A stretch of 64,000 nt of DNA from assembly GCF_023856365.1 (NCBI RefSeq), contig NW_026042749.1, positions 1 through 64,000 of the forward strand, given 5' to 3'. The notes beneath the pieces were generated by a model. That model had not been told where the DNA came from. It did no database searches and saw nothing but the letters and a program-made list of their open reading frames with translations. Below are positions 16,228-19,649 of this stretch, in pieces; within the stretch, counting starts at the first letter, position 1, and each line of letters opens with the position of its first letter. Source of the DNA: Brienomyrus brachyistius. Taxonomy: Eukaryota; Chordata; Actinopteri; Osteoglossiformes; Mormyridae. Made by a program: the position numbers and the translations under genes.

Positions 16228-17795
16228 TTGGTTCAGATAGGCGACGGACAATCTGATTGGCTCAGATAGGCGACGGACAATCTGATTGGCTCAGATAGGC
16301 GACGGACAATCTGATTGGCTCAGATAGGCGACGGACAATCTGATTGGCTCAGATAGGCGACGGACAATCTGATTGGCTCAGATAGGCGACGGACAATCTG
16401 ATTGGCTCAGATAGGCGACGGACAATCTGATTGGCTCAGATAGGCGACGGACAATCTGATTGGCTCAGATAGGCGACGGACAATCTGATTGGCTCAGATA
16501 GGCGACGGACAATCTGATTGGCTCAGATAGGCGACGGACAATCTGATTGGCTCAGATAGGCGACGGACAATCTGATTGGCTCAGATAGGCGACGGACAAT
16601 CTGATTGGCTCATAGGCGACGGACAATCTGATTGGCTCAGATAGGCGACGGACAATCTGATTGGCTCAGATAGGCGACGGACAATCTGATTGGCTCAGAT
16701 AGGCGACGGACAATCTGATTGGCTCAGATAGGCGACGGACAATCTGATTGGCTCAGATAGGCGACGGACAATCTGATTGGCTCAGATAGGCGACGGACAA
16801 TCTGATTGGCTCAGATAGGCGACGGACAATCTGATTGGCTCAGATAGGCGACGGACAATCTGATTGGCTCAGATAGGCGACGGACAATCTGATTGGCTCA
16901 GATAGGCGACGGACAATCTGATTGGCTCAGATAGGCGACGGACAATCTGATTGGCTCAGATAGGCGACGGACAATCTGATTGGCTCAGATAGGCGACGGA
17001 CAATCTGATTGGCTCAGATAGGCGACGGACAATCTGATTGGCTCAGATAGGCGACGGACAATCTGATTGGCTCAGATAGGCGACGGACAATCTGATTGGC
17101 TCAGATAGGCGACGGACAATCTGATTGGCTCAGATAGGCGACGGACAATCTGATTGGCTCAGATAGGCGACGGACGATCTGATTGGCTCAGATAGGCGAC
17201 GGACGATCTGATTGGTTCAGATAGGCGACGGACGATCTGATTGGTTCAGATAGGCGACGGACGATCTGATTGGCTCAGATAGGCGACGGACGATCTGATT
17301 GGCTCAGATAGGCGACGGACGATCTGATTGGCTCAGATAGGCGACGGACGATCTGATTGGCTCAGATAGGCGACGGACGATCTGATTGGCTCAGATAGGC
17401 GACGGACGATCTGATTGGCTCAGATGGGCGACGGACGATCTGATTGGCTCAGATGGGCGACGGACGATCTGATTGGCTCAGATGGGCGACGGACGATCTG
17501 ATTGGCTCAGATAGGCGACGGACGATCTGATTGGCTCAGATAGGCGACGGACGATCTGATTGGCTCAGATAGGCGACGGACGATCTGATTGGCTCAGATA
17601 GGCGACGGACAATCTGATTGGCTCAGATAGGCGACGGACAATCTGATTGGCTCAGATAGGCGACGGACAATCTGATTGGCTCAGATAGGCGACGGACAAT
17701 CTGATTGGCTCAGATAGGCGACGGACAATCTGATTGGCTCAGATAGGCGACGGACAATCTGATTGGCTCAGATAGGCGACGGACAATCTGATTGG
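16228..17795 (+). repeat. Left arm of giant palindromic minisatellite (29-bp unit, ~54 copies)
   Basis: Perfect or near-perfect tandem 29-mers containing CAGATAGGCGACGG and CAATCTGATTGG. The first unit carries GGTTCAG; nearly all others carry GGCTCAG. One unit near 16612 lacks two bases. Between about 17175 and 17585 some fifteen units carry GACGATCT instead of GACAATCT; GATGGGCG variants occur inside this block at about 17424-17486. Divergence is otherwise nearly nil, which indicates recent expansion or homogenisation. Confidence 0.97.
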
Positions 17796-19649
17796 CAGAT
17801 TGTCCGTCGCCTATCTGAGCCAATCAGATTGTCCGTCGCCTATCTGAGCCAATCAGATTGTCCGTCGCCTATCTGAGCCAATCAGATTGTCCGTCGCCTA
17901 TCTGAGCCAATCAGATTGTCCGTCGCCTATCTGAGCCAATCAGATTGTCCTTCGCCTATCTGAGCCAATCAGATTGTCCGTCGCCTATCTGAGCCAATCA
18001 GATTGTCCGTCGCCTATCTGAGCCAATCAGATTGTCCGTCGCCTATCTGAGCCAATCAGATTGTCCGTCGCCTATCTGAGCCAATCAGATTGTCCGTCGC
18101 CTATCTGAGCCAATCAGATCGTCCGTCGCCTATCTGAGCCAATCAGATCGTCCGTCGCCTATCTGAGCCAATCAGATCGTCCGTCGCCTATCTGAGCCAA
18201 TCAGATCGTCCGTCGCCTATCTGAGCCAATCAGATCGTCCGTCGCCTATCTGAGCCAATCAGATCGTCCGTCGCCTATCTGAGCCAATCAGATCGTCCGT
18301 CGCCTATCTGAGCCAATCAGATCGTCCGTCGCCTATCTGAGCCAATCAGATCGTCCGTCGCCTATCTGAGCCAATCAGATCGTCCGTCGCCTATCTGAGC
18401 CAATCAGATCGTCCGTCGCCTATCTGAGCCAATCAGATCGTCCGTCGCCTATCTGAGCCAATCAGATCGTCCGTCGCCTATCTGAGCCAATCAGATCGTC
18501 CGTCGCCTATCTGAGCCAATCAGATCGTCCGTCGCCTATCTGAGCCAATCAGATCGTCCGTCGCCTATCTGAGCCAATCAGATCGTCCGTCGCCTATCTG
18601 AGCCAATCAGATCGTCCGTCGCCTATCTGAGCCAATCAGATTGTCCGTCGCCTATCTGAGCCAATCAGATTGTCCGTCGCCTATCTGAGCCAATCAGATT
18701 GTCCGTCGCCTATCTGAGCCAATCAGATTGTCCGTCGCCTATCTGAGCCAATCAGATTGTCCGTCGCCTATCTGAGCCAATCAGATTGTCCGTCGCCTAT
18801 CTGAGCCAATCAGATTGTCCGTCGCCTATCTGAACCAATCAGATTGTCCGTCGCCTATCTGAGCCAATCAGATTGTCCGTCGCCTATCTGAGCCAATCAG
18901 ATTGTCCGTCGCCTATCTGAGCCAATCAGATTGTCCGTCGCCTATCTGAGCCAATCAGATTGTCCGTCGCCTATCTGAGCCAATCAGATTGTCCGTCGCC
19001 TATCTGAGCCAATCAGATTGTCCGTCGCCTATCTGAGCCAATCAGATTGTCCGTCGCCTATCTGAGCCAATCAGATTGTCCGTCGCCTATCTGAGCCAAT
19101 CAGATTGTCCGTCGCCTATCTGAGCCAATCAGATTGTCCGTCGCCTATCTGAGCCAATCAGATTGTCCGTCGCCTATCTGAGCCAATCAGATTGTCCGTC
19201 GCCTATCTGAGCCAATCAGATTGTCCGTCGCCTATCTGAGCCAATCAGATTGTCCGTCGCCTATCTGAGCCAATCAGATTGTCCGTCGCCTATCTGAGCC
19301 AATCAGATTGTCCGTCGCCTATCTGAGCCAATCAGATTGTCCGTCGCCTATCTGAGCCAATCAGATTGTCCGTCGCCTATCTGAGCCAATCAGATTGTCC
19401 GTCGCCTATCTGAACCAATCAGATTGTCCGTCGCCTATCTGAACCAATCAGATTGTCCGTCGCCTATCTGAACCAATCAGATTGTCCGTCGCCTATCTGA
19501 ACCAATCAGATTGTCCGTCGCCTATCTGAACCAATCAGATTGTCCGTCGCCTATCTGAACCAATCAGATTGTCCGTCGCCTATCTGAACCAATCAGATTG
19601 TCCGTCGCCTATCTGAACCAATCAGATTGTCCGTCGCCTATCTGAACCA
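17796..19649 (-). repeat. Right arm of giant palindromic minisatellite (~64 inverted copies)
   Basis: The same 29-mer in reverse complement (TGTCCGTCGCCTATCTGAG) runs to 19649. The turning point is around 17791-17800, where ACAATCT-GATTGGC-AGATTGT forms the central hairpin. A block with GATCGTCC variants occupies about 18117-18625, mirroring the variant block of the left arm, and TGAACCAAT variants concentrate at the outer end from about 19412, as the outermost unit of the left arm does. The arms are therefore related by an inverted duplication followed by unequal growth. Confidence 0.97.

Follow-up and report, generated by a model that had tools for sequence, protein, structure and literature searches.

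A 3.4-kb palindromic minisatellite in a U2AF2 intron of Brienomyrus brachyistius, probably an overgrown terminal inverted repeat of a foldback MITE

Introduction

In the 64,000 bp of contig NW_026042749.1 of Brienomyrus brachyistius that were analysed here as one stretch (the window), a single 29-bp unit is repeated over 3.4 kb, in one orientation over the first part of the array and in the opposite orientation over the second. This locus raises the question of how a minisatellite came to face an inverted copy of itself, and whether the resulting palindrome is a genuine piece of chromosome or a product of sequencing or assembly. The first-pass annotation of the sequence had described the palindrome and set out both possibilities, but it overlooked the connection of the array with a transposon and the missing last exon of the host gene, U2AF2.

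Results

Architecture of the array and the turn

Tandem Repeats Finder showed two abutting 29-bp arrays of opposite orientation at 16227-17796 (54.2 copies, 99% matches) and 17796-19659 (64.3 copies, 99% matches), and the two consensus units were mutual reverse complements. Splitting of the arrays into units produced a left arm on the plus strand (16227-17790) with 54 whole head-to-tail units of ATTGGCTCAGATAGGCGACGGACAATCTG, of which unit 14 has 27 bp, and a right arm on the minus strand (17796-19651) with 64 whole inverted units. The arms are 1.6 kb and 1.9 kb long and the palindrome has a total length of 3.4 kb and 118 units. The earlier counts of about 54 units facing about 64 inverted copies, with a turn at about 17795, were therefore correct, and the end of the array that had been placed at 19649 lies 2-10 bp further (19651 by units and 19659 by Tandem Repeats Finder). 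A search with up to six substitutions allowed counted 53 units on the plus strand and 64 on the minus strand, and no copy of the unit was found in the 64-kb window outside the array. The 29-bp unit and one MITE motif were also compared with viral contigs, with 0 matches each.

Inverted-repeat analysis and folding identified a 5-nt loop, ATTGG, at the turn (17791-17795), which replaces the 7-base spacer reported at first. The sequence of the turn is GGACAATCTG-ATTGG-CAGATTGTCC, and the longest perfect inverted repeat around it has arms of 155 bp (17636-17790 and 17796-17950). A stretch of 116 nt across the turn, folded as single-stranded DNA, reached -75.9 kcal/mol compared to a shuffle mean of -15.1 (z -24.0), in agreement with the hairpin-prone nature that had been proposed for the locus. 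Stretches taken from one arm folded much more weakly, at -23.3 for 140 nt (z -4.0) and -12.7 for 87 nt (z -2.3). The palindromic array is far beyond chance. Its earlier description as near-perfect holds for the units, with 99% matches, but not for the register of the whole arms, in which 1239 of 1564 positions were identical when the arms were compared outward from the centre without gaps.

Two other repetitive regions were found in the window. A second minisatellite at 5518-6593 consists of 23.4 copies of a 46-mer with 88% matches (Tandem Repeats Finder), and the region 51578-53929 carries tandem repeats with periods of 261 (2.8 copies) and 486 (2.9 copies), interspersed with long runs of the dinucleotide TA.

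Mirrored variants in the two arms

Three point variants relative to ATTGGCTCAGATAGGCGACGGACAATCTG, C6T, A13G and A24G, were present in more than one unit. Read from the outer to the inner end, position 24 showed runs of 32 A, 15 G and 7 A units in the left arm and of 35 A, 18 G and 11 A units in the right arm, so that A24G forms a single internal block in either arm (left, 15 units at 17153-17587 on the plus strand; right, 18 units at 18115-18636 on the minus strand) and the runs differ between the arms by 3, 3 and 4 units. C6T was found in the left arm in the outermost unit alone at the edge and in units 35-36, and in the right arm in the nine outermost units (19391-19651, minus strand) and in unit 29; this base is common with the MITE arms described below. 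A13G was restricted to three left units and C19A to one right unit.

As a control for unit order, the left arm was rotated (53 rotations) or reversed, aligned to the right arm, and the alignment costs were compared. The reversed order cost 28.4 compared to 17.2 for the true order, and 6 of the 53 rotations cost the same as the true order or less, the best at 15.4. This control is weak, and the argument for an inverted copy therefore rests on the common A24G block and not on exact unit order. The presence of A24G as one internal block in both arms points to inverted copying of an array that had already acquired its variants, or to later exchange between the arms, and disfavours independent growth of the arms without exchange. 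Probably, one arm was copied from the other in inverted orientation once the array had expanded.

The same variants bear on the foldback or hairpin read that had been offered as an artefactual explanation. Such a read would repeat one flank and produce equal arms, but the flanks of the array differ and the runs are 32/15/7 in one arm and 35/18/11 in the other, which rules it out as the whole explanation. Variants private to one arm also disfavour it, namely A13G in three left units and C6T in nine outermost units on the right against one on the left. Of the two artefacts proposed at first, the hairpin read is thus disfavoured, and the assembly misjoin at the array stays in play given the missing U2AF2 exon.

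MITE copies in the window and the MITE end beside the array

BLAST of the array flanks against the window showed two foldback MITE-like elements, B (33009-33233) and C (36621-36869), both on the plus strand, less than 20 kb from the array and with both ends present, from GGGAG to CTCCCA. Each was able to fold on itself over almost its full length (B -127.7 and C -158.6 kcal/mol, RNA parameters). B and C are two further copies of the family in the 64-kb window, and the nhmmer profile and all MITE comparisons were built on these two reference copies only. With this profile, nhmmer recovered B and C on both strands ahead of the matches at the right array edge (19641-19732, E 4.6e-08; opposite strand 19725-19648, E 3.5e-06). 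Aligned with the right arm of B, the right flank without array units (19652-19740) gave a score of 60, and none of 500 dinucleotide shuffles scored as high, the best reaching 43. The right arm of the array passes directly into a diverged right MITE end of the B/C family at 19652-19718 (plus strand).

On the other side, the array-free left flank (16150-16226) had a score of 24 for a MITE end, which 197 of 500 shuffles equalled, and the nhmmer match at the left edge (16210-16288, E 0.035) was below the inclusion threshold and takes in array units. The turn of the palindrome showed nothing recognisable as a MITE interior. Instead of a MITE end, flank inspection and shuffles showed at 16195-16226 (plus strand) ATTAAA followed by the A-rich stretch CACAAACACAAAAAA, which abuts the array and would perhaps be a degraded remnant of the 3' end of an inserted transcript-like sequence.

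No sound target-site duplication was found for B or C. Copy C has CATGTG on either side at unequal distances from its ends, and copy B has no duplication of 5-9 nt within 25 nt. TTAA was absent from the four 25-nt flanks of B and C, as taken from element ends that are not exactly fixed. A 12-mer, ACACAAAAAATT, was found by eye beside both array edges and considered as a target-site duplication of the array; it was set aside because the sequence inside one copy is no mirror image of that inside the other and the matching letters are A-rich.

Resemblance of the 29-bp unit to the MITE arms

Two units (58 nt) scored 40 against the MITE copies, compared to 37 for the best of 500 shuffles, and the outermost left unit together with the next one scored 46, compared to 34. 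Half-units were then compared with the MITE arms in 12 tests, uncorrected. The first 14 nt of the outermost unit matched all four MITE arms, each with 0 of 500 mononucleotide shuffles as good. The last 17 nt of the unit with ATTGG matched the right arm of B (0/500) and the left arm of C (1/500), while 61 and 179 of 500 shuffles were as good for the other two arms, and without ATTGG no MITE arm was distinctive (88-445 of 500 shuffles). The outermost unit of both array arms has T at position 6, as in the MITE arms; three of the four arms compared carry ATTGGTTCAG with this T and the fourth carries ATTGGTTCGG, also with T. For a chance resemblance between unit and MITE, the shuffles are clearly against it for whole units and mixed for the second half of the unit.

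Host gene and the missing last exon

Matches to human U2AF65 were ordered on the minus strand from 28504 to 19783 and covered all coding exons of U2AF2 except the last. The array sits in the intron after the penultimate coding exon (19786-20040, minus strand, by protein matches, upper end approximate), which showed a match with the solved U2AF65 chain 2m52_A (E 5.5e-30). The last matched residue, 432, falls on GTG; this was taken for the splice donor, which puts the end of the exon at residue 431 and 67 bp ahead of the TGGGAG end of the MITE.

The last exon, of 44 residues, was expected further left and was not found in the 64-kb window. The best match of the search was E 0.27 over 8 residues at 44.7 kb, the best to the left of the array was E 1.0 on the wrong strand, and a second search of the window with E up to 1 produced none for the 44 residues. 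The sole U2AF65 matches of this second search to the left of the array, at 15.2-15.9 kb, were arginine-rich low-complexity matches to the N-terminal part of the protein. The missing exon may be explained by a last intron of great length, by a real rearrangement or by a misjoin in the assembly. Since both the last U2AF2 exon and the left MITE end are missing, the array may originally have had another neighbour than the sequence now to the left of 16226. The region where the last exon was expected contains exon-like ORFs at 10050-14253 (plus strand), the first with a signal-peptide-like start, and three of these ORFs had no match in Pfam.

Other genes were also indicated in the window. Exon-like ORFs at 30581-37000 (plus strand), a stretch within which MITE copies B and C fall, resemble an RGS-type gene with a DEP domain, and those at 44669-48000 (minus strand) resemble the chloride channel gene CLCN7. 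Long ORFs at 60587-62684 have a zinc-finger-like start and, by the look of the translation, may be transposon-derived; among the 10 window ORFs submitted to Pfam, they had one match, below the curated cut-off. A tRNA-Asp (GTC) gene was identified at 29050-29123 on the minus strand, and this tRNA was the only match in Rfam at gathering thresholds.

Discussion

The MITE end at the right edge of the array and the resemblance of the unit to the MITE arm together suggest a terminal inverted repeat (TIR) of a MITE as the place where the array expanded. The explanation favoured here, with moderate confidence, is that the palindrome is the overgrown TIR of a foldback MITE, in which a 29-bp piece was amplified and the finished array was copied in inverted orientation. 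A foldback MITE, whose right end is still present, would have landed beside the U2AF2 exon, and the unit may have been born by a deletion that joined two ATTGG-bearing parts of the MITE arm. Unequal exchange or slippage would then have multiplied this 29-bp derivative head to tail. The inverted copy with its 5-nt loop could stem from a template switch of the polymerase inside the array, or from a break or stalled fork for which the opposite arm served as repair template, and later unequal exchange may account for the observed differences of 3-4 units per run. The predicted effect is a hairpin-prone, unstable site in an intron of the host gene, and no cellular function is claimed for the palindrome.

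An assembly misjoin, which would have fused two single-orientation arrays (of two alleles, or of two loci in one family) head to head and united flanks that are not neighbours, is an unlikely explanation but one with several observations on its side. The missing last U2AF2 exon and the missing left MITE end are both expected if the left flank is foreign, the arms resemble two minisatellite alleles with the same run order and 3-4 units between them per run, and near-identical units invite false joins. On the other hand, the turn is a clean 5-nt loop between perfect arms of 155 bp, and alleles could be joined only by a read with a turn in it; two alleles of a locus would also have their outer flank in common, but the flanks here differ. 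A real chromosome break is a further reading, likewise unlikely, in which the MITE-grown array, following a break, gave rise to its own inverted copy and the palindrome is the breakpoint that severed the last U2AF2 exon. This reading is compatible with the origin from a MITE TIR and adds the chromosome break to it.

The wholesale inverted copying would not be needed if both TIRs of one MITE had grown their arrays separately, with loss of the interior and later exchange between the arms. B and C are already near-full-length inverted repeats, so opposed arrays would need no new inversion, and Galileo copies with unequal repeat numbers in their two TIRs are described in an excerpt of PMC3573991. 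This course of events was judged quite improbable, as the common A24G block of similar length and place would need repeated exchange and the left MITE end was not found. The remaining alternative separates the array from the transposon altogether, as an ordinary minisatellite that was locally inverted or inverted-duplicated and has the right MITE end as a chance neighbour. The lack of a MITE end on the left and the weak match of the second half of the unit to the MITE agree with it, but the likeness of unit and MITE arm exceeds 500 shuffles and the MITE end begins where the array ends, and it is regarded as very improbable.

An origin of the palindrome from the MITE TIR would trace, in sequence, how a small hairpin transposon can turn into a kilobase palindrome of pure minisatellite, and with the mirrored variant blocks one could ask whether sequence is exchanged between the two arms of a palindrome. 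Should the palindrome be one molecule beside the exon, the locus is a natural test site for hairpin-driven breakage; if it is not, it is a clear case of a repeat that misled an assembly into joining flanks wrongly and cutting a gene model short. If the breakpoint reading is true, this one locus records a transposon, a minisatellite, a palindrome and a chromosome break in order.

Elements with direct tandem repeats in both inverted arms are known, and the array has this trait of the FB, Galileo and Tetris elements in its 54 and 64 opposed units. The Foldback (FB) element of Drosophila has terminal inverted repeats made of short tandem repeats of about 31 bp. It is an insect element and is likened to the array by description. 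Galileo, a foldback-like element of the P superfamily in Drosophila, also has long terminal inverted repeats with tandem repeats and is compared by description as well. Excerpts of the reports on Galileo describe internal direct tandem repeats in the F-subfamily, which can be unequal in number in the two TIRs of a single copy (PMC3573991), and further transposase-binding sites located in such repeats (PMC3688188). The Galileo repeat is about 210 bp long and present in 2-3 copies, whereas the array has 29-bp units in 54 and 64 copies, shows a MITE end on one side only and has no interior. In Tetris of Drosophila virilis, according to an excerpt of its report, TIR-220 repeats in the TIRs of a non-autonomous foldback element gave rise to satellite arrays of up to 66 copies (PMC4079207); those units are about 220 bp long, in an insect, with amplification favoured in beta-heterochromatin, whereas the 29-bp unit lies beside an exon.

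Among vertebrates, Xmix/Xstir of Xenopus (T2-MITE, Kolobok) is a comparable case, a MITE with an amplified segment, which became a large tandem-repeat family as outlined in an excerpt of PMC6004289. For Xstir, this segment is the TIR according to a review table (PMC9659126) and an internal segment according to the excerpt of PMC6004289, which also gives a TTAA target site and terminal AGGRR for Xmix; the flanks of B and C are without TTAA. A fish case is found in Atlantic cod, in which an excerpt of PMC12368964 places transposons, including tandem-repeated structures of a hAT-derived MITE, at the breakpoints of large inversions; compared by description, opposed 29-bp arrays are not part of that excerpt. 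In the bacterium Porphyromonas gingivalis, the BrickBuilt element has a 23-nt minisatellite within a MITE (PMC4596501) and appears in the excerpt as a tandem run with small inverted-repeat ends and not as two opposed arrays.

In the way it works, the array resembles a foldback-like element whose ends are tandemly repeated. It was not assigned to a named family because its left end, target-site duplication and copy number are not established and the TTAA of the Xmix type is absent from the flanks of B and C. The literature covered, which consisted of titles and abstract openings with most subscription journals outside it, contained no opposed minisatellite arrays of this form. Overall, the array belongs to a kind that is already known from Galileo, Tetris and Xmix/Xstir, and as a pure palindrome of 118 units without an interior it is unusual.
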